Assembly: GCA_019634695.1 (NCBI GenBank)
Contig: JAHCAW010000011.1
Span: forward strand, 1-64,000
Direction: 5' to 3'
DNA: 64,000 bases
Origin: Candidatus Sumerlaeia bacterium
GTDB taxonomy: Bacteria > Sumerlaeota > Sumerlaeia > SLMS01 > JAHLLQ01
A program made the position numbers and the translations under genes. Positions 1,914 through 23,227 of this stretch are shown piece by piece. Under the pieces are notes generated by a model. It saw only the letters and a list, made by a program, of their open reading frames with translations, was not told where the DNA came from and did no database searches. Each line of letters begins with the position of its first letter. Within the stretch, counting starts at the first letter, position 1.

Positions 1914-2375
1914 CTACTTCAGTGCCTTGGGGAGAACGCCGCGATCAAACTCTTCCAGCACCGTCCAATGATCGCCGAAAATGGTGGTGCCGGGGTACAC
2001 TGACTCACGCCGACCGTCAATCCACCATCCAGCCGCGACCTTTTCGGTCAGCACCTGCGTCCGGTACTCCAGCAGCTTTTCAAGCAGATCCGCCTTTTCC
2101 CGATGAGAGAGCCTGTCCGCGATCCATACGGATTCGCTGATCCATTCCGACCGCAGCGCTCTCGCCCAGGCGATTTGCTTGTCGCTGCCGGTAAGAGCGG
2201 GGAGTGACATTTCTGCCTCCTGCGATGAGGCAATCTCCAGCCGACGGGCACGCTCGCAAGTGCTGCATGGGAAACTTTCCATCCAGGCGATCTTGCGTTC
2301 CCGTTCAGCGTGGGGGCCAAAAAGCTTGTGGGTCTGGTTGCAACCGCAGGAATGAGTGATTTCGTACTGTGCCAT
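1914..2375 (-). CDS. Zinc-ribbon-like hypothetical protein (153 aa)
   Basis: Starts MAQYEITHSCGCNQTH with a good ribosome site (AGAGGAGCC) five bases upstream. Paired cysteines (CGC near residue 10, CSTC near residue 37) suggest a small N-terminal zinc-binding module. The central LTGSDKQIAWARALR matches a motif I know from many phage and plasmid hypothetical proteins of unknown function. The C-terminal part is WxDGR-rich. Its job is unknown; position and motif both fit a mobile-element accessory protein. Confidence 0.65.
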   Translation of the reverse strand: MAQYEITHSCGCNQTHKLFGPHAERERKIAWMESFPCSTCERARRLEIASSQEAEMSLPALTGSDKQIAWARALRSEWISESVWIADRLSHREKADLLEKLLEYRTQVLTEKVAAGWWIDGRRESVYPGTTIFGDHWTVLEEFDRGVLPKALK

Positions 2376-2948: not shown

Positions 2949-5564
2949 TCACCCAGAGCGCATTACGCGTCGCTGAACGCGCATCCTCAAGCACGGCTTC
3001 ATGATGCTCGCGAGGATGTCGTGGACACGGTTGCAAGCTTCCGGATGACGGCCCCCGTCCAGAGGTTCGATTTCCTTCCATCTGGCGATGCTCTGCACCT
3101 TCTTCTTCGTGAAGGAGGTGATCTCACGAATGCAGGCGTCATCCGCGCCCTCCTTCGACATCGCCCAGGCGACCTTCTCGCGGCACATAGTATCGAGGTC
3201 AGAAACTTGACCATCGGCGATCTCGAAGAGCCTACGGAATACGTCGAACTCCAAAACCTCTTCCACGCCATGGAGTACATCTCGGCAGGTTCTGCTTTCC
3301 TTACGCCGGGCAACACGCTCCTTCCATGCCTTGTAGGCGGCGTGAGCAGCAGCGGCTTCGTAGCTGTCTCGCCAGGGAACGGTGTCGAAGTAGACTCGCT
3401 CGACTTCGCCTTCGTTCATGGCCGGAACGGAAACCATCTTCAAGGAGTCCACGTCGATCCGACGTTTGAGATCGTAGTCACCAGAGATCGTCACCGTCTT
3501 GCAAACACTCTTCAGGTCGTCGATGACTCCTCCGCGAGCGCCTGGGAGCATGCTCAGGAGACCGCTGAGGGAACGCCTGGTGAAAGCCCAGTCACGTGCC
3601 AAATACCGGCGATGAAGATCGAGACATGCCTCACGGTGCCCCAACTTGTGGCCATCACGGTCTCGCGTTTGAATACCTCCCCGCTGGATGGGAACCCCCT
3701 TCGCCTGCTTGTTATCAGCGGTCACGGAAAGACGTTCGGAGTCGGTTCCCCAGGACATACGTGTCCTGATCGAGACCATGCCCTGGGTCTCGTGCTTCAC
3801 CTCAATCAACCCCATGGCTTTGCCGAACAAACGTGTCTTCTCTTCCTCGACTGCGCTGTACAGCGGCAGGTCAGCGAGCCACTCCTGGAGAAACTCTCCC
3901 TCGATCTGGATGCCGTCCGTGGTGGCGTTCACAACCCGGAGGCCTTCGATCCGGGCCTTGTTCACGATCTCGGCAACGAGGCAGCGAGTTACAGCGGTGA
4001 TGTAGGCGGCGACAAAAGGTGACTGACAGGTCGAGTATGCTCGTTGCGAGACCACCCTTGTCTTCTGTTTCAGGGAACGGAACAGGTCAACCACCTTTCG
4101 GGGACGGATGTCCTGGGCGATTTTGCCATAAATGGAGTTCGCAATCAGCTTCATGAGTCCGGCCTTCGACGGATCAGTCATTTTTACGCGATCGCGCTCG
4201 ATGATCAAGGTACTCACAGCGTCAGAGACGCGGCGGCTGGAGGTTGAACCGAAAACGATCCCATTGACGATCTCCAAGTGCTCCAGATGCCCACTCTGAT
4301 GTGCGGCCCAGACTTCTGTGACAGTCACGAGCGCCTCTCCCGAAAGCGGAAAGATCAGGCCGCGCTCGCTCTCGACGGCGAAGAAGGGCGCGGGGCAGTC
4401 GTGCTTGAAACGAAACCTGACATGAGCGACGCCCAAGGCAAAAGGCCCCGGCAAGTTATCCGCTGAAGCGAATGACCGGATGTCGTCCCAGTCGGGATCC
4501 GGAAGGCATGCAAGGGCAATCGGGTAGGCCGACTTCAAATCCAGTTCCTGGCACGTCCCATCAACGTATCCATGAACGTAGGCCTCGTTTCTACCCCCGT
4601 GGTACGAAACTTTGGCGGCTTCCCTGTATCCCCAACGAACACCGGGCCCCTTCTCATCAGCGGAACGCCCGGTCAGGACATACAGACCGCCGTGTTCGCT
4701 ATCATCCTCCAGGGCGTGCCCCAGGTAAAGACCGGCCATGTGACTTGCCGTGATGGGGATCTCACCCGGAGTGATCAGGCCAAGGTCGACAGCTTCATCA
4801 ATGAGCCAGCAGAACCAGGCCGAGGCAATGACCGAATCCTGCATGGCATAACGGATGAAGAGGCCGCGGTCGTCTTCCAGAAGAAGACGCATGTTCTCTA
4901 TCGCACCGTTTGGAAGCTCAACCTTTGGGAGATCCAGCGCTTGGCCAAGATCATGAAGTGCCTGTCCCCCGGACAAGAGGTTGGTGTCGTGGAGAGAAAA
5001 CAGAACACGCTTCGCGTTTCTGTTGTGGTCCGGGTATTCGTACAAATCCGGCTGCTTGCTGGTCACCGACTTCTGAACGGCGATCAGGTTCTTCAGCCGC
5101 TTTGTGACGGTGGGCTTCCACTGTGTGGATGAGAGTTCGGCGACGCTGTAGTGCGAGATAAAACGGAGCGTGGTGATGCCCTTCTTTCGGTCCAGCACGA
5201 AACGGTGAGCGAGGCGAATAACCTCATCCAGGCTCAATTTCTCTGCGTGGGTGGGACGCAGAACAAGGAGTCCCACCCCAAGCTCCAGGAACCAGAACTG
5301 GTGCGAGACGATGTCGTTGCTGTCGAGCGCGGCCTCATCTTCACCGTCTCCCTCACAGACATCATCAGCGACGAGCGGGCGTCCTTGGACGTACTCTGTA
5401 TCCCAGCCAACGGTGATGGTCTTGCAGGTGATCGACTTCTTCAACAAAGGTGGAGGTTCATCCACCATCTTGATCTCGTAGGTCTCCAGATTCTCGAAAC
5501 CCGCGATCTGGATCGTCTTGTCTTCGTAGCGGAGCGGGTTGCTCGCCTTCTTCATCTCTGTCAT
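2949..5564 (-). CDS. Family B DNA polymerase (organellar/viral DNA_pol_B_2 type)
   Basis: Probable replicative polymerase of the element, 871 aa. The exonuclease domain shows GWDTEY (Asp55, Glu57; Exo I), a weak Exo II (ISHYSVAE, about 136-143) and YAMQD (Tyr239, Asp243; Exo III). The polymerase domain shows motif A LDLKSAYP (Asp342), motif B KLIANSIYG (about 472-480), then SPFVAAYITAVTR, which is typical of DNA_pol_B_2. Motif C is the unusual TTDG (Asp550) in place of the usual DTDS, so the first acidic residue is Thr. Residues 640-871 have no recognised domain. The spacing of motifs A and B resembles protein-primed and primer-independent polymerases. No terminal protein gene is visible. It lies in the same minus-strand block as parB, consistent with an element that can replicate when excised. 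Confidence 0.85.
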   Translation of the reverse strand: MTEMKKASNPLRYEDKTIQIAGFENLETYEIKMVDEPPPLLKKSITCKTITVGWDTEYVQGRPLVADDVCEGDGEDEAALDSNDIVSHQFWFLELGVGLLVLRPTHAEKLSLDEVIRLAHRFVLDRKKGITTLRFISHYSVAELSSTQWKPTVTKRLKNLIAVQKSVTSKQPDLYEYPDHNRNAKRVLFSLHDTNLLSGGQALHDLGQALDLPKVELPNGAIENMRLLLEDDRGLFIRYAMQDSVIASAWFCWLIDEAVDLGLITPGEIPITASHMAGLYLGHALEDDSEHGGLYVLTGRSADEKGPGVRWGYREAAKVSYHGGRNEAYVHGYVDGTCQELDLKSAYPIALACLPDPDWDDIRSFASADNLPGPFALGVAHVRFRFKHDCPAPFFAVESERGLIFPLSGEALVTVTEVWAAHQSGHLEHLEIVNGIVFGSTSSRRVSDAVSTLIIERDRVKMTDPSKAGLMKLIANSIYGKIAQDIRPRKVVDLFRSLKQKTRVVSQRAYSTCQSPFVAAYITAVTRCLVAEIVNKARIEGLRVVNATTDGIQIEGEFLQEWLADLPLYSAVEEEKTRLFGKAMGLIEVKHETQGMVSIRTRMSWGTDSERLSVTADNKQAKGVPIQRGGIQTRDRDGHKLGHREACLDLHRRYLARDWAFTRRSLSGLLSMLPGARGGVIDDLKSVCKTVTISGDYDLKRRIDVDSLKMVSVPAMNEGEVERVYFDTVPWRDSYEAAAAHAAYKAWKERVARRKESRTCRDVLHGVEEVLEFDVFRRLFEIADGQVSDLDTMCREKVAWAMSKEGADDACIREITSFTKKKVQSIARWKEIEPLDGGRHPEACNRVHDILASIMKPCLRMRVQRRVMRSG

Positions 5565-5688
5565 GGTGGCAGTCCCTTGGTTTCAGGTCTGCCACTACGG
5601 TAGGGTAATCGTACGAAATCGGTTCGATCTCGGAATCGACGTGTAGGGGTTGATCTAGCGTAGCTGCATCCGCGTTCTCTCGTGTCAT
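5458..5688 (-). CDS. Possible small ORF overlapping the polymerase start
   Basis: An ATG at 5688 has a good ribosome site (AGGAGACTCC) and opens 76 codons. The first 35 residues (MTRENADAATLDQPLHV...) look protein-like and acidic. The remainder lies out of frame over the polymerase start and looks like a shadow. It could be a leader peptide, an overlapping small gene, or the true start of the polymerase with a frameshift near 5,570. Low confidence. Confidence 0.3.
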   Translation of the reverse strand: MTRENADAATLDQPLHVDSEIEPISYDYPTVVADLKPRDCHHDRDEEGEQPAPLRRQDDPDRGFRESGDLRDQDGG

Positions 5689-5903
5689 GGAGTCTCCTAT
5701 AGGGCACGGAATACAAAGCACTGTCACGACAGGGCTTAGAAAACGAAGCGCGGGGCTGAATTCGTAGTTGAGAGGTGACGTCGGCTTCGCCCGATCAACC
5801 TCCTGTCCCGCAGGTAGAAGTCTGAACTCTGCTCACCTTTGGAAGATTTCGATGTTCAACGTGCCGCCGGTCAGATTCTTCCGGGTACAGCCGTTTCTCC
5901 GAA

Positions 5904-7175
5904 TCACGCATCGGGGAACATCTGCTGGAGAATTGATTTGAACGCCGCTTCGATCTCCTCCTTCGTGGGAGCATTCTTCTTCGACGTGAGCACCACGCCA
6001 ATTCCACCATGGTTCAGCTTCTGGCGGAATCCGGATGTCTTCTTCTTCGTCGAGGGTGTGGAGCGCTGGGAGCGCATCGCAGCGACAGTAGCTCCACTCA
6101 AGGCGATTTCCATCAGACGCTGACGATCTTCCTCAGAATCCGCTCCTGCGATGATAACGAGCTGCTCCATGCCGAGATGGCGAACGCGGTCGTGATGCTC
6201 AACGGGGATGTCCAGCAGCTTGCGGTACTTGCTGACTTGGGTGACGTCGATGTTCACTGCTTTTGCCAGGTCTTTCTGCGAGAAGTTGGGATCAGCGGTT
6301 CTTTTCTCATGCAGTGCCATGTCGAATGCCTTCGCAAGCTCCAGGTGATCATTCTTCTTCGACTGACAATTCTCTGCTAGTCGGCGCAATGTCACCATGT
6401 CCGCAGAGGGAGAATCGATGATCACGTCGACGACCTTGTACCCGGCCCTCTTCTGGGCAAGGAAGCGACGCTCACCCAGCAGTACATCGAATCGCCCGCT
6501 GCGCTTGGGAATGACCGTGATCGGATGCATGTTGCCATGATGCTTGATGTTCTCGGCGAACGCATTGATGTCGCCTTGATCATCCCGGAAGTTTTCCTCG
6601 TCCACGTCGATGAGATTGATCGGCACAGTGCGAAGAAGCCTCCTGGGAGCGGCCTCGGTCGATGCCTGATCTACAGCGTCGAAGAGAGCTTGGAGATTGC
6701 AGGCGTCCTTGAGAATGGGAATCGCCGAGTCGTCCGGGGTACATTTCAAGGCGACGGTGGTTTCATCCCACCGAGCCAGCCTGTTCCCGATTCCAACGAG
6801 GTGTTCACCCTTTGGATCCAGCTTGCACCAGCCGACCGAGAGCATCAGCAGGCCCTGGAGAATTGGGAGATCCTCTCGCTCATCAGGGTTCAACCCAAGA
6901 GCTGCGGCCAGGACCTCGATGACAGGCCTCCCGCGCCTGTGAGCCCGGTTGATGAGGAACGCCTCCTTCGAGCGCCCGGCGATCGCCAGATGGAGCCTGG
7001 GCCGTTCGCCCACGCCGAAGAGCCTAATATCTGCATGTGACTCAAAGCAGAAGTCAGCGCCCATACGGGTTTCAAGGACGCTCAGAAGCGCCTGGCTGAC
7101 ACACTGCATCACTTTGCTGCCATGCTTTGCGATAATCTCATTGGACTTCTTGTTGGTGAATATGGACCTGCTCAT
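5904..7175 (-). CDS. ParB-family partition / DNA-binding protein
   Basis: 423 aa from MSRSIFTNKK at 7175, which has AAGGAGAACGAG just upstream; an earlier in-frame start at 7226 lacks this. Residues 1-170 are an unassigned N-terminal extension. The ParB box LLGERRFLAQKRAG lies near residue 230 and matches the GERRxRA core of the CTP-binding ParB fold. A helix-turn-helix follows (SQKDLAKAVNIDVTQVSKYRK). It is likely a centromere-binding protein for the excised or replicating form, or an element regulator. No ParA ATPase is seen in the window. Two identical palindromes lie upstream, one between its -10 box and start, which fits autoregulation or parS binding. Confidence 0.85.
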   Translation of the reverse strand: MSRSIFTNKKSNEIIAKHGSKVMQCVSQALLSVLETRMGADFCFESHADIRLFGVGERPRLHLAIAGRSKEAFLINRAHRRGRPVIEVLAAALGLNPDEREDLPILQGLLMLSVGWCKLDPKGEHLVGIGNRLARWDETTVALKCTPDDSAIPILKDACNLQALFDAVDQASTEAAPRRLLRTVPINLIDVDEENFRDDQGDINAFAENIKHHGNMHPITVIPKRSGRFDVLLGERRFLAQKRAGYKVVDVIIDSPSADMVTLRRLAENCQSKKNDHLELAKAFDMALHEKRTADPNFSQKDLAKAVNIDVTQVSKYRKLLDIPVEHHDRVRHLGMEQLVIIAGADSEEDRQRLMEIALSGATVAAMRSQRSTPSTKKKTSGFRQKLNHGGIGVVLTSKKNAPTKEEIEAAFKSILQQMFPDA

Positions 7176-7191
7176 CTCGTTCTCCTTGGGG

Positions 7192-7207
7192 GTTGCGACG
7201 TCGCAAC
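7192..7207. promoter_or_regulatory. 16-bp palindrome, site 1 (candidate parS/operator)
   Basis: Perfect palindrome GTTGCGACGTCGCAAC, located between the candidate -10 box at 7225-7230 and the parB start at 7175. Same length class as chromosomal parS, with which it shares the GTT...AAC arms. Repeated exactly at 7351-7366. Confidence 0.7.
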
Positions 7208-7224
7208 TCCAGTTGATTGGATGC

Positions 7225-7230
7225 ACTATA
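7225..7230 (-). promoter_or_regulatory. Candidate -10 box (TATAGT) for parB
   Basis: TATAGT on the minus strand about 50 bases before the parB start. The palindrome at 7192-7207 is immediately downstream, so a protein bound there would block elongation or initiation. No strong -35 box. Confidence 0.45.
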
Positions 7231-7692
7231 TCATAGCCTGAATCCTCCTGACCGACATTTCTTCAGCCTCAATGAAGAGATGCCCAATTCAGGGACTATT
7301 GGTCTGAAAAAACAAGGCGAGTTCGCAGCCGGGGAGTCGTTGGCTGACCGGTTGCGACGTCGCAACTCGGCTGCCGTACATCTCTCCTCTCGTCGTCTTG
7401 CCGACCACGATCGGAAGGCCTCGTGCTAACATAAGATGGCTGACCGGGCTTACCATCTCTGCGCTAGTACGGGCCCTCGAAGCGGAAACCCAATCTCAAA
7501 TTCTAAAGCCATCGCTTTGGGCCTCCTGCCTCAGGGGCTGAACGGCCAGGCCCATCGCCGATCACACCCACCAAGCCCGTGCCTCGGACAACTCCACCGC
7601 TTACTGGCTGTCCTGAGCTCTTAGTACGGCAGCCGAAAATCGGCTCCTTCCGCCACGTTGCACTTGCCTCCGGCCTACATAGCCCAACAGTC
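7231..7692. other. Divergent intergenic region between parB and the defence operon
   Basis: About 460 bases without a supported gene. It separates the minus-strand backbone from the plus-strand defence operon and contains the second palindrome. Short open frames here have no ribosome sites or recognisable sequence. It could hold the operon promoter or a replication/partition locus, but no clear -35/-10 pair or iteron array was found. Confidence 0.5.
7351..7366. promoter_or_regulatory. 16-bp palindrome, site 2 (candidate parS/operator)
   Basis: Exact second copy of GTTGCGACGTCGCAAC, 159 bases from the first (start to start). I found no third copy elsewhere in the window. Two identical 16-bp palindromes beside a parB gene are unlikely by chance. 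Confidence 0.7.
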
Positions 7693-7732
7693 TCCAACTC
7701 GACCCAATAAGACCCGATGTAGTCGGGTTGGA
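7693..7732 (+). promoter_or_regulatory. Inverted repeat over the HTH ribosome site
   Basis: TCCAACTCGA at 7693-7702 and TCGGGTTGGA at 7723-7732 pair in 9 of 10 positions. A second, tighter hairpin (ACCCGA/TCGGGT, 7712-7717 with 7723-7728) uses the same right arm. The right arm overlaps the GGAG ribosome site of the HTH gene. It may be an operator for that protein or an RNA structure limiting its translation. Confidence 0.45.
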
Positions 7733-7742
7733 GACACACCTG

Positions 7743-7952
7743 ATGACCCCAAGACCGTTACCCTGGCTCTCTGTCGATGAGATCGCCAGCCACCTCGGAA
7801 TCAAGAGAGACACTGTCTATCTGTGGATCGAGAAGCGCGGACTTCCGGCCCACAAGGTAGGTAGGCTCTGGAAATTCCAAGTTGATGAAGTCGATGAGTG
7901 GGTCAGATCCGGTAGAGCAAGCGACCAGACAACCGAGGAATCGAACCAATGA
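7743..7952 (+). CDS. Small helix-turn-helix (excisionase/MerR-type) protein
   Basis: 69 aa. The winged-helix core is LSVDEIASHLGIKRDTVYLWIEKRGLP, followed by the wing KVGRLWKFQVDEVDEWV, the pattern of excisionase-family HTH_17 domains. The ATG at 7743 has GGAG nine bases upstream; a TTG at 7728 is possible but lies in the inverted repeat. The stop overlaps the start of the DUF499 gene (ATGA). Small HTH proteins open several multi-gene methylation-linked defence operons, where they are thought to control expression. Here it is the likely regulator of the whole downstream operon, perhaps binding the inverted repeat at its own start. Confidence 0.85.
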   Translation: MTPRPLPWLSVDEIASHLGIKRDTVYLWIEKRGLPAHKVGRLWKFQVDEVDEWVRSGRASDQTTEESNQ

Positions 7953-10900
7953 AGACCCTGCGTCAAAGCTGCATCCCACGCAAGTCCGTGCATGATCGCA
8001 CCCGCAGGGACACCGTCCTTGAGCTGACTGATTTCCTGTTCGGCAAGGTCAGCGCGAGCGACTTCTTCGAGGAGAACTACCTTACCGACGGCATGAAGCA
8101 CCTGTTGTTCGAGGCGTTCCGTCGGTTCTCTGGTGACACGGATCAGTGCGTCTTTACGCTGACCCAAGCCATGGGTGGCGGCAAAACTCACAATCAGATC
8201 GCGCTGGGCCTCCTTGCTCGCGACCCCTCCGTTCGCAAGCAGGTGATGGGAGACCTCCTTCAGAACGATGCACTGGGTGAGGTGCGTGTGATCGGATTCT
8301 CGGGGCGCGACAGCGACGCACCGCTGGGGATCTGGGGGTCTCTTGCTGAGCAACTCGGCAAGAAGGAGTTGTTCAAAGATTACTACTCTCCCCTCCAGGC
8401 TCCCGGCCCTGCCGCCTGGATCAACCTGTTGCAGGGCGAGCCGTTGCTCATCCTGCTCGATGAGTTGCCCCCCTACTTCGAGGCCACTCGCTCAAAGACA
8501 GTTGGAAACAGCGATCTTTCGCAGGTCACCGCTACCGCACTTGCCAACCTGCTCATCGCGGTCAGCAAAGAAGAACTCAAGAACGTCTGTGTCGTCATCA
8601 GCGACCTGGGAGCAACCTCCTGGAAGACTGGTAGCGAGGCGATCGGCCAAGCTTTGAAGAGCTTCGAGAACGAGGTCGGGCGCATCGCGCTCCGTCTTGA
8701 GCCTGTAGCCCTTCACAAGGAGGAGCTGTACCACATCCTTCGCAAGCGCCTCTTCGAGACTTTACCCGACGACGACACCATCTGGGAGGTCGCAAAGGCA
8801 TACGCGCAGGCGGTCAAGGACGCCAAGCAGATGGACATCACCAACGCGTCCCCTGAAAAGTTCGCCGCCCAGCTCCATGACTCCTTCCCATTCCACTTCT
8901 CGATCCGCGACCTCTACGCCCGCTTCAAGGAGAACCCTGGCTTCCAACAGACCCGCGGCCTGATCCGTCTCATGCGGACGGTCGTTTCCCGCATGTGGAA
9001 GACCAAGGCGGCGGACCAACGGCATCTGATCCATCCGTACGACATCGATCTAAACGACACCGACACTCGGTCTGAAGTGCTCGCAATCAACTCCAGGCTC
9101 GATCCCGCGATCACCCACGACATCGCCAGCAATGGGTCTGCGGTGGCCGAGAACATGGACGCCAACCTGGGGGCTGGCACCGATGCTCAGGACGCCTGTA
9201 AGCTGATTCTGGTGTCCTCTCTGGCCAACGTGCCCAACGCCACCCTCGGTCTCACTGTTTCTGAAATCGTCTCCTTCCTGTGCGTGCCGGGCCGCGATGT
9301 GGCCCGGCTTCCCAAGGAAATCCTTGGCCTCCTTTCCACCCGCGCCTGGTACCTCCACAGCAACCGCGAAGGCCGTCTCTTCTTCCGCGAGACCCAGAAC
9401 CTCGTCGCCAAGCTCAACACCATGGCCGAGGCACTCCCCCGCGAGTCCTCTCGCAAGGAGCTCCAGTCCATCCTTCGGCGTCTATTCGAGCCATCGCTAA
9501 AGGACTGCTACCAAGAGGTCCTGCCGCTCCCCGGCGTGGACGAGATCGACATCAAGCCCGATCGGGTTACACTCGTCATCTCCCCACCACACCCCGGTTC
9601 CGGGCTTCATCCTGACCTCGTCAAATTCTGGAACGACCTTGGGTACAAGAACCGCGTTCTTTTTCTCAGCGGCGAACGCGATGCGCTGGATGCGCTCCTC
9701 TCCAAGTCGGCAGAGGCGAAGGCCATCCAGGTCATCCTGAAGGAAATGGATGATGAGAAGGTGTCCGAAAAGGATGCCATGCGTGTCGAAGCGCAGCAGC
9801 TCACTGATAAGATCCAAGGGCAGATCCTCTCGGCTGCTCGCGAGGCCTTTACGCGCCTCTACTTCCCGTCCTTCAAGCCTGGCTCCAACGATGCCGCGCT
9901 CATGACGGCGGACTTCATCATGAACTTCACCGACAACAACTACAACGGTGAGAAGCAGATCCGCGAGGCGCTGAAGGCGAAGCAAAAATTCACCGAAGAC
10001 ACAACGAGTGACTCCTTCCGCCTTCGCTGCGAAGAGCGCCTCTTCGCCAACCAGCAGGTCGTAGCTTGGAATGAGCTGAAAAAGCGTGCAGCCGGAAATA
10101 CTAAGTGGCCATGGCATCGTCCAGCGGCACTGGATGAACTGAAGGAGCTCCTGGTCAACAGGGACCAGTGGCGCGAGGACGGAGGCTTTGTCGATAAGGG
10201 CCCCTTCCCTCCTCCCAAATCAGACATCGCCATCCGCGAACTCACCCGAGACGAAAACACCGGCGAGGTTACCCTCCGGCTCGACCCCGTTCATGCAGAC
10301 ACGGTTCACTACGAACTGGGCGGGAATCCGGCGACCACCGGCTCGCTCAAAGTCGATAACCTTCAGGCCTTCAAGACAAAGGAACTTCATCTCTCCTTCT
10401 TCGCCGTGGATTCCTCGGGCAAGAACGCCGTGGGGACCCCCAAGGCCTGGAAGAACCGGATAACGCTCAAATATCGCCTGTTCCAGGATGGGGATGACAA
10501 ACGGTGCGAGTTGGAAGCCGCTCCGGCTGCATCCATCAAATACACAACAAACGGTTCTGACCCCAAGAACTCCGGCGGAACATACGACTCCCCCTTCATC
10601 GTTCCGAAAGGGACCGTGGTGGTCTTGGCTGTCGCCGAGAAGGCGGGGATCACTTCCGAAATTCTGAACGTCCCCATTGATTGGGAGAAGGACGACGGCG
10701 TCCAGGTCGATCCCTTCAAGCCCGCCCTGTGGAAGCGCTCCCACGATCTCAAGTCCACCAAGGAAACCTTCGAGTTCCTGGACCGCCTCAAACGCTTCTC
10801 CGCCACGGCACCCGGGCCCAAGATCACATTGTCAGGCGAGCGCTACATCGAACTGACCTTCGACCCCAAGTTGGAACCCGATCCCTCCCAGATCGAGGAA

Positions 10901-11044
10901 GCCATCAAGCCACTGCGTACCCTTCTGACCGAAGGACAGGTCTGGCTCGATGCGGAAAGCATCCGTTTCTCTTCCGGTCAAGGGCTTCTCGACTGGGTGG
11001 CGGAAGTCAAAACCGAGCTCATGCCCGCAGAGGTGGTGCAATGA
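7949..11044 (+). CDS. DUF499 anti-phage-associated ATPase
   Basis: 1,031 aa. A large P-loop protein of the DUF499/COG1483 family, found next to DUF1156 methylases in defence islands. Walker A is AMGGGKTH (about 74-81) and Walker B is LLILLDELPPYF (about 166-176). The C-terminal part contains a chitobiase/Ig-like fold (KYTTNGSDP near 863, then VPKGTVVVLAVAEKAG), often used for protein contacts. It is probably the energy-using component that acts with the methylase and helicase; the biochemical role is not established. It starts inside the stop of the HTH gene, and its own stop overlaps the start of DUF3780, so the operon is translationally coupled. Confidence 0.92.
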   Translation: MKTLRQSCIPRKSVHDRTRRDTVLELTDFLFGKVSASDFFEENYLTDGMKHLLFEAFRRFSGDTDQCVFTLTQAMGGGKTHNQIALGLLARDPSVRKQVMGDLLQNDALGEVRVIGFSGRDSDAPLGIWGSLAEQLGKKELFKDYYSPLQAPGPAAWINLLQGEPLLILLDELPPYFEATRSKTVGNSDLSQVTATALANLLIAVSKEELKNVCVVISDLGATSWKTGSEAIGQALKSFENEVGRIALRLEPVALHKEELYHILRKRLFETLPDDDTIWEVAKAYAQAVKDAKQMDITNASPEKFAAQLHDSFPFHFSIRDLYARFKENPGFQQTRGLIRLMRTVVSRMWKTKAADQRHLIHPYDIDLNDTDTRSEVLAINSRLDPAITHDIASNGSAVAENMDANLGAGTDAQDACKLILVSSLANVPNATLGLTVSEIVSFLCVPGRDVARLPKEILGLLSTRAWYLHSNREGRLFFRETQNLVAKLNTMAEALPRESSRKELQSILRRLFEPSLKDCYQEVLPLPGVDEIDIKPDRVTLVISPPHPGSGLHPDLVKFWNDLGYKNRVLFLSGERDALDALLSKSAEAKAIQVILKEMDDEKVSEKDAMRVEAQQLTDKIQGQILSAAREAFTRLYFPSFKPGSNDAALMTADFIMNFTDNNYNGEKQIREALKAKQKFTEDTTSDSFRLRCEERLFANQQVVAWNELKKRAAGNTKWPWHRPAALDELKELLVNRDQWREDGGFVDKGPFPPPKSDIAIRELTRDENTGEVTLRLDPVHADTVHYELGGNPATTGSLKVDNLQAFKTKELHLSFFAVDSSGKNAVGTPKAWKNRITLKYRLFQDGDDKRCELEAAPAASIKYTTNGSDPKNSGGTYDSPFIVPKGTVVVLAVAEKAGITSEILNVPIDWEKDDGVQVDPFKPALWKRSHDLKSTKETFEFLDRLKRFSATAPGPKITLSGERYIELTFDPKLEPDPSQIEEAIKPLRTLLTEGQVWLDAESIRFSSGQGLLDWVAEVKTELMPAEVVQ

Positions 11045-11697
11045 TGACCGAGGAGAAGCCAAAGAGGAGGTCCGCCTCCCCATCAGCCTCCGGTTTCGGC
11101 TTCTTCCCCGAGGAGTCGCAGCATCACTTTTTGGTCACGATCCCGCCGAAGGACGGACATATCCTCATCTCGGAGCACCACACCTGGGACGATGCCGATG
11201 CCCGCCGAGACCTCTCCTTCGCCCTCGGTAAAGAGGACGAAAAGCTGCGCGTTTCCCTGCCCCGGGAGAAGTGGGACGCCATCGCCGATGGAGCCCGTAA
11301 AGAATTCAACGAGCGCCTGAAGCGCAACGGCCACAAGACCGGCGCATGGCGTCGTGGACGGGTCCCCCTCAGTCGACTGTTCGGCAAGGAGCTTGTCCTG
11401 CTGGCATGGGCCGTTGAAGACGCCGATCCCGCTCTTATCCCAACCGCGCTTCGCAACTGGCTCGGCCTCGCTCCAGAGGAACGTTGGTGGCTTTACACCA
11501 TGACCGCAGCTGCTACAGGCCACGCGCTCGCCGGACGGAACAAGGGCTGGCGCAAGGCTGTGCGATTCGCCCTCACCGAGAATCCCGTTTCTGAAGCCAA
11601 CGAAGAGAGCTACGAAGAGGTCAGGCCCTACGACCTCTTCTTCGGAGTCAGCGAGGAAGAGGCGAAGTGGGGAAGCCCAAAAAAGCGGAGGAAGTGA
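11041..11697 (+). CDS. DUF3780 anti-phage-associated protein
   Basis: 218 aa, starting MMTEEKPKRR within the DUF499 stop codon. Hallmarks of the family are GFGFFPEESQHHFLVTIP, ISEHHTWD, GKELVLLAWAVEDADP and APEERWWLYTMTAAATGHA. DUF3780 occurs almost only beside DUF499 and DUF1156 genes, so it is a core part of this defence set, but its activity is unknown. No catalytic motif is visible. The 3' end is followed after 44 bases by the first of the inserted genes. Confidence 0.88.
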   Translation: MMTEEKPKRRSASPSASGFGFFPEESQHHFLVTIPPKDGHILISEHHTWDDADARRDLSFALGKEDEKLRVSLPREKWDAIADGARKEFNERLKRNGHKTGAWRRGRVPLSRLFGKELVLLAWAVEDADPALIPTALRNWLGLAPEERWWLYTMTAAATGHALAGRNKGWRKAVRFALTENPVSEANEESYEEVRPYDLFFGVSEEEAKWGSPKKRRK

Positions 11698-11741
11698 TTC
11701 AAGATCCCCCTCTCGCGTACCGAAAGATCCAGGAAAAGGCA

Positions 11742-12335
11742 ATGACCATGGCTAAGACCATAGACAACAAAAAGGACGTCGTCCTCCTGCTCCTCTACTC
11801 CCCAGGGGCATCAGGCAATTTCAACGAGCCTGTGGTGGGCCGAACTCGACTCGTCAAGATGCTCTTCGTTTTTTACAAGGAGTGGCTCAAGCATTTCAAA
11901 AGGGGGACCAAGATCACCGAGGAGAACTTCTACCGGTTCTTTGCCTGGAACTTCGGACCCTTTTCCAAGGAAGTGTACGACGATCTCATGTTCTTCATCC
12001 TCAGGGGCTTCATCGACAGGGAGGAATCCACCGCCGAGGTCCTTCCAGAGGCGGCAGCCGAGTGGGATGAGTGGATGAACATGTCCACGTCAGAGGCTGA
12101 GGATGGCGGCTTCAGCGAATATGAAGAACAAGAGTTCCGGCTGTCCGAGAAGGGGCTACGCTTCGCGAAGGAATTGTACGACTCGCTAAGTCCCGAGCAG
12201 AGGACGACGCTCAAAACCTTCAAGACAAAAATGAACACGGCGTCGCTGCGAGCAATCCTCAAGTACGTTTATGAAACCTATCCCGACTTCACCACGCAGT
12301 CTCAAATTCGCTCGAAGGTGCTCGGCAGACCATGA
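11742..12335 (+). CDS. Panacea/SocA-like (DUF4065-type) protein
   Basis: 197 aa from the ATG at 11742, which has AGGA seven bases upstream. An in-frame GTG at 11667 would add residues that merely overlap the DUF3780 end. The sequence (RTRLVKMLFVFYKEWL, NFYRFFAWNFGPFSKEVYDDL, GFI, then FRLSEKGLRFAKELY) follows the pattern of Panacea/YwgA-like proteins. These act as antitoxin or adaptor domains in many toxin-antitoxin and defence loci. There is an acidic insert near residues 110-145. No toxin is obvious next to it unless the following membrane protein plays that part. It is the first gene of the insert between DUF3780 and DUF1156. Confidence 0.6.
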   Translation: MTMAKTIDNKKDVVLLLLYSPGASGNFNEPVVGRTRLVKMLFVFYKEWLKHFKRGTKITEENFYRFFAWNFGPFSKEVYDDLMFFILRGFIDREESTAEVLPEAAAEWDEWMNMSTSEAEDGGFSEYEEQEFRLSEKGLRFAKELYDSLSPEQRTTLKTFKTKMNTASLRAILKYVYETYPDFTTQSQIRSKVLGRP

Positions 12336-12841
12336 GTATAACGGCGACCACACTCACCTCACTGCTTCCACTGGCCATCGGTGGCGTGGTTTCGTATTTC
12401 AAGCCGTTTTTGGAAGACCAGAAAGAGTTCAAGAACCGTGGCAGGCGTATGATCACTCAAAGCACAGAAGCTGTTGCCGAAGCGCTCTGTGCCGTGGTGG
12501 AAGAGCGGGTTCGGGTTCGAGTCGAAGGACACCAAAACTTGGCACGTGGAGACGGGAGGTCAGAGCCAGACCTCTACGGCAGAGTCGCTGAACTAATTTC
12601 TCGTCACGGCAAGCTCAGTTTCCGTGTCAACCTTCGTAATCTGATCTTCAGAGCATGCTACGGAGCCCTGCTTGTCGGTGTCCTTGTCGGGTTCGTGTGC
12701 TTGGTCCTATCTCTGGTCACGAAGAACTACGAGGTGGCGATACTGTCAGTCTCGCTCTCCACAGCCGGGGCCGAGATCGTCTGTGTGCTCGTGCTCTACA
12801 GCCTGACGAGGAGGAGCGAAGATGACGAAGAAATCCTCTAA
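12332..12841 (+). CDS. Small two-helix membrane protein, unknown function
   Basis: 169 aa, overlapping the previous stop (ATGA). An N-terminal hydrophobic stretch (LTSLLPLAIGGVVSYF) is followed by a charged region (about 25-100). Two strong membrane helices lie near 108-130 and 137-158 (YGALLVGVLVGFVCLVLSLV; VSLSTAGAEIVCVLVLYSL), with an acidic tail. No family recognised. Small membrane proteins in defence operons often act as effectors that harm the cell membrane, which makes this a candidate effector partner of the Panacea-like protein; that is inference. Confidence 0.6.
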   Translation: MSITATTLTSLLPLAIGGVVSYFKPFLEDQKEFKNRGRRMITQSTEAVAEALCAVVEERVRVRVEGHQNLARGDGRSEPDLYGRVAELISRHGKLSFRVNLRNLIFRACYGALLVGVLVGFVCLVLSLVTKNYEVAILSVSLSTAGAEIVCVLVLYSLTRRSEDDEEIL

Positions 12842-13265
12842 GCAAGCGGGTCCACTTACCGAACTGGATCTCGTGTGCTCACTCGTACCCTTCCTTGTTG
12901 ACGAGGGATACGACGTGAAGCTGGAGGTTTCAAACATGGGGCAGAGCATCGACCTCGTGGGGCTCCGGGGCAACAACCGCTGGCTGACTGCCATCGAAGT
13001 GAAGAGAACGAATTGGAAGAGGGCGCTGGAGCAGTGCCAGGCCCATGCTCTGGTGTGCGACTATATCGCCATCGCGCTCGCGTTGAAAGGTGTCCCAAAG
13101 CAACTTAGCCACGAGCTCAACCACAACGGCTGGGGCCTGCTTCTCTTCAACCATGACGCCCGCACTTGGGACTGGACTATCCGGCCCGTCGTGAATCGCC
13201 GTGTCTGGAAGCCGCAAAGAACCCGGTTCCTGATGAATCTAAGGGAGATCAGCCATGCCTCTTGA
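12822..13265 (+). CDS. PD-(D/E)XK-like nuclease domain protein
   Basis: 147 aa, start MTKKSSKQAG with GAGGAGGAGCGAAG before it, overlapping the membrane gene by 20 bases. The core has SIDLVGLR, then WLTAIEVKRTNW and a following helix ALEQCQAHALVCDYIAIAL. This matches the D...ExK strand pattern of the restriction-endonuclease fold (Asp in IDLVG, Glu-Val-Lys in EVKRT). The protein is compact, without a separate DNA-binding domain, so it may work with a partner. Assignment rests on motif shape only; no close family is named. Confidence 0.6.
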   Translation: MTKKSSKQAGPLTELDLVCSLVPFLVDEGYDVKLEVSNMGQSIDLVGLRGNNRWLTAIEVKRTNWKRALEQCQAHALVCDYIAIALALKGVPKQLSHELNHNGWGLLLFNHDARTWDWTIRPVVNRRVWKPQRTRFLMNLREISHAS

Positions 13266-14598
13266 ACACTGGATGATGTTCAGCACGTTTGCGGAGCAGG
13301 ATTACTTCATCTATCCGCGCAGCGACGTTTACTCTGGCGTCTTCATCAATGCGAATATGGCGGCGCATGCCCCGGCAGGCCTCGCGAGCTTCATCATCGA
13401 GAAGCTGAATCCCGAAACAAAGTACATGGTCGATCCCATCACACATGCTTTTCAGCACGATCCCGTGTTCATCAAGAACGACAAGGGTGAGGTGAAGAAA
13501 GCCATACAGTCGCTCGCGGAGGCCTATGGTGACCCGATGCTATCGCACGTGGGGAGGAAACCACTTTCGCCATCGCAGTTCGATGAGAAGACTCTCGCCT
13601 CTCTATGCCCGCGAGTACTCGGTTACCAACGTGATCACCTACGTGGGTACATGGAAGGTTCAGATGCAGCGAAGTACCTGGACTCGGATGAGATCAAGTC
13701 CCCTTCTGCCTTGGTCGCTCCCTATTTCTTTCTGACCGAGACGGAATGGAGCGGATGGCTCACCGTGAATACAGATGCGGTAGCTGTCTCGCTAGAGGCT
13801 CTTCAGCCAGGTGAGCGCCTCTTCGCTGAGGTGGTCGTGGACCGTGGGGTTCTCCTCGACGCCCGAATCCGTGCTCAGGTCGTGAAAGCCTACAGCCGCT
13901 TTCAGAACATGATCGCGGGCTTTCTGCTCTGGATCGATAATTTCGATGAGCAGTCCGTCCCGATGGCTGAACTCAGGGCGTTCAAGGAATTCTGTCACTC
14001 TCTCAAGTCCATCGCTCCGGAAGTGATCAACCTTCATGGTGGCTACTTTTCAATTCTCATGGGAGGGACGGTTGGCAGCGAGTGCCTGACAGGTGTAGCC
14101 CACGGGCCGGAGTTTGGCGAGTTCCGCTCCGTTGTACCAGTCGGAGGGGGTATCCCCATCGCCCGGTACTATGTCCCGCGCTTGCACGCTCGGGTCCGAT
14201 ACCGCGAAGCAGCGGATTTCTTCCAGGCGGCAGGCTGGCTCGAAACTGCTGATCGTTTCATTCACAACGTCTGCAACTGTGAAGAATGCCTCGATACCCT
14301 TGCCAGTGACGCCGCCAATTTCACGAAATTCGGAGAAGGCGACGTAAAGAATGTGCGCCGTCGCCACGGCATGGTTCGCATCGAATTTCCCTCCGCAGAA
14401 ACGAAGCGGCGCTGCCTCCGCCACTACTTGCAAAGAAAGCATCGCGAGTTTCAGATGGTTCGCAATGCCGAGCCTGGTGCATCACTGAGAGAGCTCCAAA
14501 ACAGTATCGATGTGCATGAGAATCTTGTGGGGACCGACGGCGTAGCCCACCTGAAGCGCTGGAAGCAGGTACTGTCGCCCAAAGAGGGAGACCACTAA
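13255..14598 (+). CDS. Uncharacterised protein, candidate TGT-like TIM barrel with CxCxxC
   Basis: 447 aa, start MPLEHWMMF with AAGGGAGA seven bases upstream. No confident family. The middle alternates strands and helices as in a TIM barrel: ERLFAEVVVDRGVL, IAGFLLWIDNFDE, INLHGGYFSILMGG, LTGVAHGPEFGE, IPIARYYVPRLHAR. It is followed by a CNCEEC zinc-type motif near residue 340. This order recalls tRNA-guanine transglycosylase-like enzymes, including DNA-modifying relatives, but key residues were not matched. The C-terminal 90 residues are basic and helical. Its stop overlaps the start of the OLD nuclease by one base, so it is probably made together with the Gabija-type pair. Confidence 0.55.
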   Translation: MPLEHWMMFSTFAEQDYFIYPRSDVYSGVFINANMAAHAPAGLASFIIEKLNPETKYMVDPITHAFQHDPVFIKNDKGEVKKAIQSLAEAYGDPMLSHVGRKPLSPSQFDEKTLASLCPRVLGYQRDHLRGYMEGSDAAKYLDSDEIKSPSALVAPYFFLTETEWSGWLTVNTDAVAVSLEALQPGERLFAEVVVDRGVLLDARIRAQVVKAYSRFQNMIAGFLLWIDNFDEQSVPMAELRAFKEFCHSLKSIAPEVINLHGGYFSILMGGTVGSECLTGVAHGPEFGEFRSVVPVGGGIPIARYYVPRLHARVRYREAADFFQAAGWLETADRFIHNVCNCEECLDTLASDAANFTKFGEGDVKNVRRRHGMVRIEFPSAETKRRCLRHYLQRKHREFQMVRNAEPGASLRELQNSIDVHENLVGTDGVAHLKRWKQVLSPKEGDH

Positions 14599-16463
14599 TG
14601 TATCTCTCCCGTGCGAAGATAAAGAACTTCCGCTCCCTCAAAGATGTCACTGTCGACTTCAAGAAAGGTCTCAATCTAGTCCTAGGCCGGAACAACATCG
14701 GCAAGACGAACCTCCTGAGCGCGATACGCATCGCAATCGGGCCGCTGGCTTCGCGTGGTGAAAGCATCTGGCTTGAAGAGGACGATTTTCTTCGTCCTTC
14801 AGTCGGCGAAGCACGAACCGAGCAGATTTCCATCGAGCTTGTCTTCGAGGAACTGAGCGAATTGCAACGCTCACAGTTCTTCGAGGTCATCAACTTTGAC
14901 CTGGCAGACATCACGAAATCTAAGGCAATCATCCGCTTCGAGGCCTCCTGGCCTGTTGGCAAGAAAATGGCAAAAATCAAACGGACAGGAGGCGCTCCTG
15001 TACCTGATGCTCCTGATGTCCCGAGTGCCATCCTTGAATCTGTGCCGATCACATTCCTTCCGGCACTTCGTGATGCCACTGCATCTCTAGCACCTGGCGT
15101 CAAGAGCCGCTTGGCTGCCCTCTTAGCTGATCGAGCAGCCCGGTCTGGGCGGAACGACCAGGAAGCGATCGAGAGTATTTTTCGTCAGGCGAACACGGAC
15201 CTTGAAGCACAGGATCTGATAAAGGAGACGAAGGTATCTCTTCTGAAGACCACGCAGGCGATGGCCGGGAGTGACCATTCCCCGTCGGGCATCAAGGCAA
15301 CGGAAGCGCAGTTTCAACGGATTCTGAAGACGCTCAAAGTTCTCATGGAGGATTCCGTCGTCACGGACCTGAAGTGCAACGGCCTAGGCTACAACAACCT
15401 ACTCTTCATGGCCGTTGTGCTCGAACACCTAAAGAATCTTGAGCCGGACGAGTGCCCGATCCTCATGGTAGAGGAGCCCGAGGCTCATCTCCATCCACAA
15501 CTCGTGAGACTGCTGGCCCGGTACCTCTCCCACAATACCCCTGGGAACGAGAGCAAACCCCAGACACTCGTGACGAGCCATTCTGCCGTGCTGGCCTCAG
15601 CCGTGGAACCCTCGCAGGTTCATGTCTTCTTCGGCCCGAACGGAGCTGGCCGCTGCCATTCGTTGGCCTCGGCAGGGATGGATGATGTCGAGCAGATGGA
15701 GTTGCAGCGAATGCTCGACATCACTCGGGCCACGATCTATTTCGCGAAGGGGGTCATCCTCGTTGAGGGAATTTCAGAAGCGCTTCTCGTTCCGGTGCTT
15801 GCTCGCCGCCTCGGGATCGACTTGGAGGACTTGCACATCAGCGTAGTTCCCATCTGCGGCGTCGCCTTTGGCACGTTTCAGAAACTGTTCAAGAAGGAAG
15901 CCCTGGGATTCCCTGTCGCCATCATCACGGACGGAGACCCACCTGTGGCGAACAAGGATAAGGCGTGGGGGGAGCAGTACCCCGAAAAGGACGGCGACAA
16001 CTTCAAGGTCTGCGATCGCACAATCAAACTTCTCGAAGTCTTCAAGGATCACACCAACGTTCGGATCTTCCAGTCGCAGGTGACCCTCGAATACGATCTG
16101 GCTCTGGCTGGCGACAAGAACGCCGGTATCATGGCCGTTGCCTGGGAGAAGTGCTTTGTCGGAAAACCTGGAACCTTCAACAAAGACAAGGTAGCCGACT
16201 CCCTCAACCTTGACCGCGGCGGAAAGGCGCTCGCTGCCTGGGGAGGGATATGCCGAGCCAACCCAACCACTGGCAAAGGTGATTTCGCTCACAGGCTGAC
16301 CTCGTTGCTCTCCAGTCAGAAGCCAGACGACAAGGCTGTCGCAGACGCCTTCGTTGTTCCCGAGTACATCAAGCAAGCCATAGTGTTCGTGCGCGATGCC
16401 GTCGCCCCTCCGTCCAGCAATGGAGCCGATCAACCGGCAACCTCCCCCGAGGAGACGAACTGA
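14598..16463 (+). CDS. gajA: OLD-family ATPase/TOPRIM nuclease (Gabija GajA-like)
   Basis: 621 aa. The N-terminal ABC-type ATPase has FRSLKDVTVDF, Walker A GRNNIGKTN (30-37) and the Walker B region VEEPEAHLHPQ (about 291-301). The C-terminal TOPRIM nuclease has VILVEGISEALL (about 386-397; catalytic Glu) and AIITDGDPP (about 440-448; DxD pair). This architecture plus the UvrD-like helicase immediately downstream is the definition of the Gabija anti-phage pair, in which GajA cuts DNA and nucleotide depletion licenses the cut. It is a little longer than the usual GajA. It starts one base inside the preceding stop with GAGGGAGACC as the ribosome site. It could also be counted as a class 2 OLD nuclease. 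Confidence 0.82.
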   Translation: MYLSRAKIKNFRSLKDVTVDFKKGLNLVLGRNNIGKTNLLSAIRIAIGPLASRGESIWLEEDDFLRPSVGEARTEQISIELVFEELSELQRSQFFEVINFDLADITKSKAIIRFEASWPVGKKMAKIKRTGGAPVPDAPDVPSAILESVPITFLPALRDATASLAPGVKSRLAALLADRAARSGRNDQEAIESIFRQANTDLEAQDLIKETKVSLLKTTQAMAGSDHSPSGIKATEAQFQRILKTLKVLMEDSVVTDLKCNGLGYNNLLFMAVVLEHLKNLEPDECPILMVEEPEAHLHPQLVRLLARYLSHNTPGNESKPQTLVTSHSAVLASAVEPSQVHVFFGPNGAGRCHSLASAGMDDVEQMELQRMLDITRATIYFAKGVILVEGISEALLVPVLARRLGIDLEDLHISVVPICGVAFGTFQKLFKKEALGFPVAIITDGDPPVANKDKAWGEQYPEKDGDNFKVCDRTIKLLEVFKDHTNVRIFQSQVTLEYDLALAGDKNAGIMAVAWEKCFVGKPGTFNKDKVADSLNLDRGGKALAAWGGICRANPTTGKGDFAHRLTSLLSSQKPDDKAVADAFVVPEYIKQAIVFVRDAVAPPSSNGADQPATSPEETN

Positions 16464-18304
16464 TGGTGGTTGCCCAGCCGACTGATCAGCAGCGCGTCAT
16501 CCTTGATGACACCTCCCGAGTCCGGGTCGTTCACGCCGCTCCGGGAAGTGGAAAGACATGGCTGGTCGCTGAGCTGATCCGCCGTGAGATCGCCAATTGG
16601 AACCGCCCCGGCCAAGGGATCGCAGCCATTTCGTTCACAAGGGTGGGGGGCGAAGAAATTCGGGCGGCACTCGGCCACGACCTCAATCATCCGCATTTCG
16701 TGGGAACGATCGATGCCTTCCTTTTTCGGTACGTCATCAGACCTTTTCTATCCAAGTCATTTCCCGAATGGAAGGTGCCTCGCCTGCTTCCGCCCACCCT
16801 CGCTCCAGCCCAATGGAGCAGGCTGGGAAGCGTACAGGGGGCGACTCCGGATGAGCGAATCAATGCTTTCGGCTGTCCCATTTGGGGGTGGGACGGCGAG
16901 ACGGATGGACCGATCATCGCACACAGACCGCCATGGAAACCTCTGCAACCATTGTCGCAGCAGCTCGCGAAGCGCGTATGGGATGAGAAGAATAGACTCT
17001 GGCGAAAAGTCGGGCTAATCTCCCACTCCGACGCTGCCTTCCTGTCTGGAGTCTTGCTTCAAGGTGACGAGGGCAGACCCCTAAGGCAGGAGATCACACG
17101 ACGCTTTCCCGTAATCGTTGTCGATGAATTGCAGGACACGAGTTACTTCATGGGGGAAGTGCTCAAGCTTCTAATTTCCGAAGCACCCACCCGCGGCGTT
17201 GTCGTCGGTGACCCCGACCAGGCGATTTACGAATTCAACGGAGCCACCCCCGCTCTCTTTGAGGGATTCAAGAGCGCTCCAGACGCCGTGGTGCTGTCGC
17301 TTTCGCAGTCCCGCAGGTGCGCCGCTGCGGTCATCCAGGTCGCTACGCACCTAAAGCAATCCGGCGGTGGCCTTGTGGCGAACCCGGAGCGACAGGGGCG
17401 AGTGTATCTGGTCGAATACGCCTCCCTCGAAAGGGACATCGCTGCCATCGCCAAGCGAGTGGCCATGCAGCGACCCCTAATTGCCAAGGTTGTCGTTCGC
17501 TCGAATACCGAAGTCGATGAGTTGATGGGACGCAGGGCAAAGAAGGATACTCCGAAGCTTGGGTGCCCTGCCCTTCAACACCTCCACCGCGCTGTGAATC
17601 TTTTCTGTCAGGGCAGGAATGCAGACGGCCTCGGTTCCGTGATGACTGCCCTCGGCCTCCACCTGTTTGACGAGGAGCACATATCCGAGGAGTCGCTGAA
17701 AGAACGGGGAATTGATCCCGATGACTGGCGAAGACTCGGCATTGATCTCCTGCTTCACGGCAGCAAATGTGACCGGGACGGAACGGCGTATGATTGGCAG
17801 CAGAGGTTAGGCGAGGCATTGGGTGAGATTATTCAGAGTTCTACGATCGGATTTTCTGACGAGCTGAAGGCTAAGAAATCAAAGCCCCAGAAACGGGGGG
17901 ATCATAGCAGAGCCTCGTCCGACTTTCTTGCCGCCGAAGGTGTCGTACTGGCACTTCCGGTCCAGACCGTCCACGGCGTGAAAGGCGAAACACACGACGT
18001 GACCATCCTCGCCTGCAAAGACCCCAAAAAGAGCGACAGATGCCCTTCTGAAGCATGGTGGTCCGACGCCCCGAAGGATCTTGAGGAACGCCGCATCGCT
18101 TACGTTGCCGTGACCAGAACCAGGGGCGACTTGATCGTATGCGTGTCGAAGAAGACGCTCGAAGCTCTGCGCTCTAAGCGGTCCGAATTCGTGAACTGCT
18201 TCGAGGTCATGGACGTCGCTCGTTTCACGGCACAATACACCTTCCCCCCGATTCCTGTCGACACCGCCACACCCGTCGCGACCGAAAGCGAAGTCCACCC
18301 ATGA
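16463..18304 (+). CDS. gajB: UvrD/PcrA-like helicase (Gabija GajB-like)
   Basis: 613 aa superfamily 1A helicase. Motif I is AAPGSGKTW (about 25-33), Ia FTRVGGEEI, II VDELQDTS, III VGDPDQAIYEF, IV SQSRRC, V VHGVKGETHD and VI YVAVTRTRGDL, all intact and in order. It overlaps the OLD nuclease stop (TGATG), as expected of a GajA-GajB pair. It is longer than typical GajB because of material between motifs IV and V. The stop overlaps the DUF1156 start (ATGA). In Gabija, GajB senses DNA ends and activates GajA; here it might also work with the methylase core. Confidence 0.85.
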   Translation: MVVAQPTDQQRVILDDTSRVRVVHAAPGSGKTWLVAELIRREIANWNRPGQGIAAISFTRVGGEEIRAALGHDLNHPHFVGTIDAFLFRYVIRPFLSKSFPEWKVPRLLPPTLAPAQWSRLGSVQGATPDERINAFGCPIWGWDGETDGPIIAHRPPWKPLQPLSQQLAKRVWDEKNRLWRKVGLISHSDAAFLSGVLLQGDEGRPLRQEITRRFPVIVVDELQDTSYFMGEVLKLLISEAPTRGVVVGDPDQAIYEFNGATPALFEGFKSAPDAVVLSLSQSRRCAAAVIQVATHLKQSGGGLVANPERQGRVYLVEYASLERDIAAIAKRVAMQRPLIAKVVVRSNTEVDELMGRRAKKDTPKLGCPALQHLHRAVNLFCQGRNADGLGSVMTALGLHLFDEEHISEESLKERGIDPDDWRRLGIDLLLHGSKCDRDGTAYDWQQRLGEALGEIIQSSTIGFSDELKAKKSKPQKRGDHSRASSDFLAAEGVVLALPVQTVHGVKGETHDVTILACKDPKKSDRCPSEAWWSDAPKDLEERRIAYVAVTRTRGDLIVCVSKKTLEALRSKRSEFVNCFEVMDVARFTAQYTFPPIPVDTATPVATESEVHP

Positions 18305-22468: not shown

Positions 22469-22507
22469 AAATCGTTCACGGGTCCTTGAGGTCGTTAGGA
22501 GGGCATC

Positions 22508-23188
22508 GTGACAACGGCACTCCCAAACGATTGGACGGACATGTCGAGATTTGTGGTCCACTTCACAAAGTCGGTGCCTCCGCGCGATGAGGTTGGTGTC
22601 ATGTTTTCGATCTACGGGAGTCAAATGCTCAGAGCTGCGAATGCCTTTGGGATTGGACGGAAGCGAGCACCAGACCCGGAAGGCCAGAAAGCAGTCTGCT
22701 TCAGCGAGGTTCCCCCTGGAAATTGGAAGCGGCTTGTTGATCGGCGGAAGTCTTCATACGGACTGGGCTTCCGAAAGGAGTTCATTCGCAAGAACGGCGG
22801 CGGGCCCATCTGGTACGTTTGGAAGGGAACGCCCCACTGGCAGGCGCTCGATTCACAGATGAAGCTTGCCAAGGGAGACCCAAGCGCACCCATCTGGAAG
22901 GTGACGCCCATGATCGACGCACCTGGGCAGTATGGTCGTAAGAGTTATGACTTTGACTGGGAAAGGGAGTGGCGGGTAGTCGGTGATTTGAGGTTCCAGA
23001 CTACTGATGTAGCCTTCCTGTTCATTCCTGAGTATATTCACGAGCAAGCAGAGGATTTCTTTGAAGGTGTGGCTTTCGAGAACACCGGTCCCAGTTACAA
23101 CTGCCCCTTCATCGACCCGCTGTGGAGTCGGAAGAAGGTCAACGACGCGATAGCGAATTTCAAGAAACGGCGTTGGAGGAGCGGATGA
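22508..23188 (+). CDS. AbiGi-like putative abortive-infection protein
   Basis: 226 aa, starting at GTG 22508, which is supported by AGGAGG five bases upstream. The pattern FVVHFTKS, then AVCFSEVPPGNW, YGLGFRKEFI, GGGPIWYVW and FDWEREWRV, FLFIPE resembles AbiGi/DUF2971-type proteins (several share a CF-[ST]-E/D and YG-x-x-x-x-K core). AbiGi has been described as the antitoxin-like half of an abortive-infection pair; the partner is not obvious here. The next gene is an uncharacterised helical protein starting 39 bases on and may be the partner. Confidence 0.5.
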   Translation: MTTALPNDWTDMSRFVVHFTKSVPPRDEVGVMFSIYGSQMLRAANAFGIGRKRAPDPEGQKAVCFSEVPPGNWKRLVDRRKSSYGLGFRKEFIRKNGGGPIWYVWKGTPHWQALDSQMKLAKGDPSAPIWKVTPMIDAPGQYGRKSYDFDWEREWRVVGDLRFQTTDVAFLFIPEYIHEQAEDFFEGVAFENTGPSYNCPFIDPLWSRKKVNDAIANFKKRRWRSG

Positions 23189-23227
23189 TCTCTTCACAAC
23201 AATTCAACGAGAGGAATCGGGTCCCCC

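Follow-up and report, generated by a model that had tools for sequence, protein, structure and literature searches.

At the start of a contig in the genome of a bacterium from a little-sampled phylum we find an element that is probably an integrated pipolin, with a polymerase that appears to represent an early-branching lineage at the base of the primer-independent family B DNA polymerases (piPolBs). Pipolins are defined by their piPolB, measure 10-40 kb, often reside in tRNA genes and are variable in their other genes (PMC9710591, PMC7385651). Here, a piPolB shares an island of low GC content with a pair of large serine recombinases, a tRNA gene forming the edge, the mobility of the whole being itself a prediction. 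Because the piPolB is the only gene common to all pipolins, we place the element in this class, and the suggestion made in the initial annotation of the sequence, that it may be a new kind of PolB-bearing integrative element, is not upheld. Its departures from the described integrated pipolins, namely the serine recombinases, a ParB protein and the host lineage, are nevertheless real, and the tRNA-Asn edge, an orphan ParB with operator- or parS-like sites and the defence cargo are unusual traits.

The stretch of DNA analysed here, which we call the window, covers the initial 64 kb of contig C13. The draft genome comprises 4.35 Mb in 127 contigs. Its features are collected in Table 1.

Table 1. 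Features of the element and its right border (positions in the window)
Feature	Position	Strand	Evidence or remark
Large serine recombinase, 306 aa present, cut by the contig start	3-920	-	Resolvase E=1.3e-22, Recombinase E=2.3e-6
153-aa protein, unknown function	1914-2375	-	phrog_16123 E=7.8e-30; same strand run as polB
piPolB, 871 aa, intact open frame	2949-5564	-	Profile score, rooted core tree, motifs
ParB/RepB/Spo0J family protein, 423 aa	5904-7175	-	ParB_N E=2.4e-10; TIGR00180 60.7 bits
16-bp perfect palindrome GTTGCGACGTCGCAAC	7192-7207		Immediately precedes the ribosome-binding site of parB
Second identical copy of GTTGCGACGTCGCAAC	7351-7366		159 bp farther upstream
HTH_17/excisionase-type DNA-binding protein, MAD1-like	7728-7952	+	HTH_17 7e-16; first gene of the cargo
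Anti-phage cargo: DUF499 ATPase, DUF3780, GajA/GajB, DUF1156 methyltransferase, PLD-helicase, unnamed genes	7949-26667	+	PADLOC, NCBIfam
Large serine recombinase, complete, 560 aa	29187-30869	+	Resolvase 8e-24, Recombinase 6e-14, Zn_ribbon_recom 1e-10
tRNA-Asn(gtt)	30828-30903	-	ARAGORN; probable insertion site and right border of the element

Family placement of the polymerase

Judged by its sequence, the polymerase of the window is a primer-independent PolB. On a profile made from 15 other piPolBs, which left out the window and included chromosomal relatives from Enterobacterales, it scored 280.6 bits, as compared to 86.4 bits on a profile of protein-primed polymerases (pPolBs). The piPolB profile gave the pPolBs themselves 7-49 bits, and piPolBs that were left out in turn reached at least 137 bits, with the enzymes of the known pipolin plasmids of S. 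epidermidis and L. fermentum at 337 and 191 bits, respectively, in this leave-one-out procedure.

A phylogeny against piPolBs and pPolBs had been proposed in the initial annotation as a check on the polymerase. In a tree of the polymerase core, which contained ten pPolBs and had its root set by an outgroup of T4 gp43 and E. coli Pol II, the window enzyme and the piPolBs formed one clade (support 100/98.7). Within this clade the window enzyme was the first branch, the other 15 grouping together at 90/86, and its grouping with the pPolBs was rejected (p-AU 0.003). Profile and rooted tree thus make for a closer kinship with pipolins than the mere resemblance that had been claimed. A tree of full-length sequences set six pPolBs apart from the rest (100/99) and left the side of the root to which the window enzyme belongs ambiguous, a placement at the base of the pPolBs having a p-AU of 0.215. 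Identity to known piPolBs amounts to only 21-31%.

The open frame contains all the exonuclease and polymerase motifs that had been annotated. The exonuclease motifs (Exo I WDTE, Exo II SHYSVAE, Exo III YAMQD) are intact, as are motif A (DLKSAYP) and motif B (KLIANSIYGK). YHGG is also present, and motif C reads TTDG at residues 548-551 and so is missing its first aspartate. The latter had been regarded as an oddity but turns out to be the norm among piPolBs, since in our alignment almost every reference piPolB has TTDG, and all of them have TDG. It has been reported that piPolBs are devoid of the first aspartate of motif C and nonetheless polymerise efficiently (Kazlauskas et al., PMC7544198). 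The trait is not exclusive to piPolBs, as this aspartate is also missing in His1, Hardyhisp2, Toil and BD811P2. We dropped a [KR]TR sequence near residue 601 as a diagnostic feature, because its alignment to the KTRG of His1, Hardyhisp2 and Toil varies between runs. A single-sequence search of the solved-structure collection with the polymerase gave no match.

The enzyme could also be a divergent pPolB that belongs to a provirus or a linear element, the terminal protein having been overlooked. Such an origin would agree with the match to DNA_pol_B_2 (E=2.4e-7), which is the only Pfam match of the protein, with the match to phrog_11768, with weak tblastn matches to His1, Hardyhisp2 and Toil, and with the ambiguity of the full-length tree. 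We consider it highly improbable, given the distance between the two profile scores (281 versus 86 bits), the rejection in the rooted core tree (p=0.003), the serine integrase type of the recombinases and the absence of phage structural genes among the scanned proteins. Furthermore, no terminal protein was recognised among the element proteins scanned with Pfam, PHROG and NCBIfam, in line with what had been annotated.

Borders of the element and its insertion site

The piPolB lies in a region with an even GC content of 55-62%, which extends from position 1 to about 30.8 kb and is followed by DNA of about 69% GC. The step, at which GC goes up from about 58-61% to 69%, coincides with the tRNA-Asn gene, and the topA gene of the host comes next after the tRNA. 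The frame of the right recombinase, which matches the integrases of phrog_95 with 4e-81, ends inside the tRNA gene. The left recombinase, which also matches phrog_95 (E=4.9e-53), is 39% identical to the right one. Base 1 of the window is base 1 of the contig, and the contig start falls within this left recombinase, such that the earlier description of an element bounded by large serine recombinases holds for the right side and can be traced only in part on the left. Both recombinases are of the large serine type, and no tyrosine recombinase, which is usual in integrated pipolins but not common to all and hence not defining, was found among the scanned element proteins. The serine recombinases had been seen as a departure from pipolins; this difference is real, but it is no bar to membership.

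Pipolins are flanked by att-like direct repeats, often in a tRNA gene; here the right edge falls in tRNA-Asn, and the left end is beyond the contig. Because the left end is missing, the length of the element, its att sites, a circular form and the linkage of its two blocks are not provable from this contig. The two blocks are a minus-strand block, which extends between parB and the left recombinase, both included, and the plus-strand block of the cargo (7728-26667). It is conceivable that they are neighbours of separate origin, i.e., a serine-recombinase defence island at tRNA-Asn next to a distinct polB/parB element, or a remnant of one, with the second recombinase. The low identity of the two recombinases, the divergence of the blocks from about 7.2-7.7 kb and the position of the left end off the contig would all be in keeping with this, but the even GC content (55-62%) and the lack of a second tRNA or an internal junction between 1 and 30.8 kb speak for a single unit. 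Moreover, a cargo that varies, restriction-modification genes and the presence of several recombinases are on record for pipolins (PMC7385651). We therefore hold an origin from two elements to be unlikely and treat the region as one pipolin.

The topA gene of the host is 77% identical to that of another genome of the same genus (n=1 searched). A comparison with an empty site in relatives was of no use, because their topA does not adjoin tRNA-Asn. In a genome of the same family, two genes follow directly on tRNA-Asn (6747-8774 of that locus): an open reading frame that resembles the C-terminus of a serine recombinase and has no PHROG match, and a gene of unknown function that possibly is a defence gene. 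In the family of the host, tRNA-Asn may have served for insertion more than once. A GC-rich, terminator-like stem (AAGCGGCCCCCGAAGAGGCCGCTT, 30787-30820) with flanking A/T runs lies in the 3'-terminal part of the frame of the right recombinase, next to the tRNA-Asn.

An orphan ParB and two palindromes

The gene upstream of polB encodes a ParB, as had been annotated: ParB_N and helix-turn-helix parts are both present, the protein matches solved ParB and Noc chains, and its TIGR00180 score is above the cut-off of 58.45 bits. Translation likely starts at the ATG at 7175, which is preceded by an AAGGAG ribosome-binding site, rather than at the GTG at 7226. The two identical palindromes that had been pointed out are likewise there, and they are the only exact copies in the 4.35-Mb genome, with no other at up to one mismatch. 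In 30.8 kb, 0.57 perfect 16-bp palindromes are expected, so that a single one would be unremarkable; two identical copies in the same promoter region, with a spacing of 159 bp, are remarkable. In their position, these candidate parS palindromes resemble operators of parB. This layout would fit an autoregulation of parB at least, while a role in partition or in marking an origin would go one step further.

No ParA was found in the element (no AAA_31 match on contig C13), and the genome has one strong, full ParA match, which lies on another contig (C117). ParB may accordingly be a mere transcription repressor of the parB-polB block, similar to KorB or Noc, with the palindromes as operators and not as parS. 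This could equally well be right or wrong in our estimation: the missing ParA, the location of both sites upstream of parB, with one of them touching its ribosome-binding site, and their restriction to two copies genome-wide all argue for it, but ParB proteins often serve both roles, and the one full ParA of the host could serve the element as well. The question concerns one part of the element, and either answer is compatible with the piPolB reading of the polymerase. A more far-reaching idea, which we deem very unlikely, is that ParB and the palindromes are a replication-control unit, in which ParB would mark the origin and load or license the piPolB on the excised circle. If this were true, ParB would provide a regulated start for an otherwise self-priming polymerase, in an early pipolin lineage with serine recombinases.

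Elsewhere in the element, a 277-aa protein (27650-28483) has a ribbon-helix-helix-like start and no Pfam or NCBIfam match. To our eye, its C-terminal stretch, VVLDGLARFAAMLEAWR...VPVELFIG, resembles a second ParB-type domain.

Defence cargo

The cargo matches the models of MADS/DISARM-like sets and of Gabija, with two components, DUF1156 and the PLD-helicase, above the curated NCBIfam cut-offs, and DUF499, DUF3780 and MAD1 below theirs. The protein encoded at 7728-7952 scores 72.5 bits with the NCBIfam model antiphage_MADS1 (cut-off 80) and 62.2 bits with TIGR01764 (excise). Unlike in MADS/DISARM-like sets, the Gabija genes GajA (14598-16463) and GajB (16463-18304) separate the DUF499 part from the DUF1156 part here, with several unnamed genes in between. 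With Gabija placed within the DUF499/DUF3780/DUF1156/PLD-helicase set, the defence island may be nested or composite.

Proposed working and relation to known pipolins

The rightward block holds defence cargo, and we propose that the leftward block (parB, polB, small genes and serine recombinase) acts as a replication and mobility module. If the proteins behave like other members of their families, a large serine recombinase would use the 3' end of tRNA-Asn for integration of the element and would excise it as a circle, and the piPolB would copy the excised DNA by priming itself; in this proposal there would therefore be no need for a terminal protein or a primase. ParB would bind the two 16-bp sites upstream of parB and repress the parB-polB block, and it may aid the segregation of the free form, perhaps with the ParA of the host. 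The defence genes might pay for the upkeep of the element. A study from 2024 is said to have presented pipolins as defence islands.

The element shares the piPolB hallmark, the tRNA edge, a size in the range of 10-40 kb and restriction or defence cargo with the integrated pipolins of Gammaproteobacteria (the E. coli type at tRNA-Leu), some of which also have more than one recombinase. It differs from them in its serine instead of tyrosine recombinases, in the use of tRNA-Asn, in the ParB beside polB, in the early-branching polymerase and in that no uracil-DNA glycosylase was seen. Integration into tRNA genes is typical of pipolins (PMC9710591; PMC7385651), and the integrated ones described carry tyrosine recombinases (PMC7385651). 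Plasmid pipolins (pSE-12228-03, pLME300 and related plasmids of Fusobacterium and Helicobacter) are the closest plasmid matches to the polymerase, and most of them have a serine "recombinase family protein". They are small and circular, and several have mob genes or a relaxase together with a short recombinase, whereas the element of the window is chromosomal and its recombinases are large; no homologue of the ParB was found in the compared pipolin plasmids by tblastn. The protein-primed polymerases of phi29, PRD1 and His1 form a sister group with the same exonuclease and polymerase motifs, but the window enzyme falls outside their clade.

In the open-licence literature, pipolins have been described in Proteobacteria, Firmicutes, Actinobacteria and fungal mitochondria, the integrated elements having tyrosine recombinases (PMC7385651). 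Judging from this literature, integrated pipolins with serine recombinases appear to be undescribed. In a little-sampled phylum, an early-branching piPolB in the company of serine recombinases and ParB would show the polymerase, and not the integrase, to be what stays constant throughout the class. In addition, the range of enzymes for primer-free DNA synthesis would gain a new and divergent member, and there would be a candidate, open to testing, for the control of piPolB replication.

Searches for relatives

A single-protein search of 39 further genomes from the host phylum revealed no relatives of the window polymerase, nor did the genome-contig and viral-contig collections contain any; the S. 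epidermidis piPolB as query found no relative in the viral contigs either. With the piPolB profile, nothing was detected in 392 genomes of the phylum of a Pirellulaceae MAG or in 397 genomes of the phylum of an Actinomycetes MAG. The profile is able to detect genuine piPolBs, since it did so in 11 of 395 Enterobacterales genomes. Matches to the DNA pattern of GGRNE[AT][FY]xHG in six genomes were discarded as due to chance, as no piPolB is encoded there. A second example of the gene set of the window did not turn up in any of the searches made.

Among plasmids, the best tblastn matches of the polymerase were in Fusobacterium, Helicobacter and Staphylococcus, including pSE-12228-03 of S. epidermidis; the enzyme of pLME300 from L. 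fermentum is a relative of the S. epidermidis piPolB. Pipolin plasmids of both species have been named previously (PMC9710591). The Fusobacterium and Helicobacter plasmids pSB051A, pCT15E1 and pNHP21005_5 (7-14 kb) carry divergent piPolBs, for which the annotation reads either hypothetical protein or DNA polymerase domain protein, and they look like unlabelled plasmid pipolins. Furthermore, a piPolB on a Pseudosulfitobacter plasmid (15082-16365) is annotated as a C-terminal piece of 427 aa beside IS66 genes.
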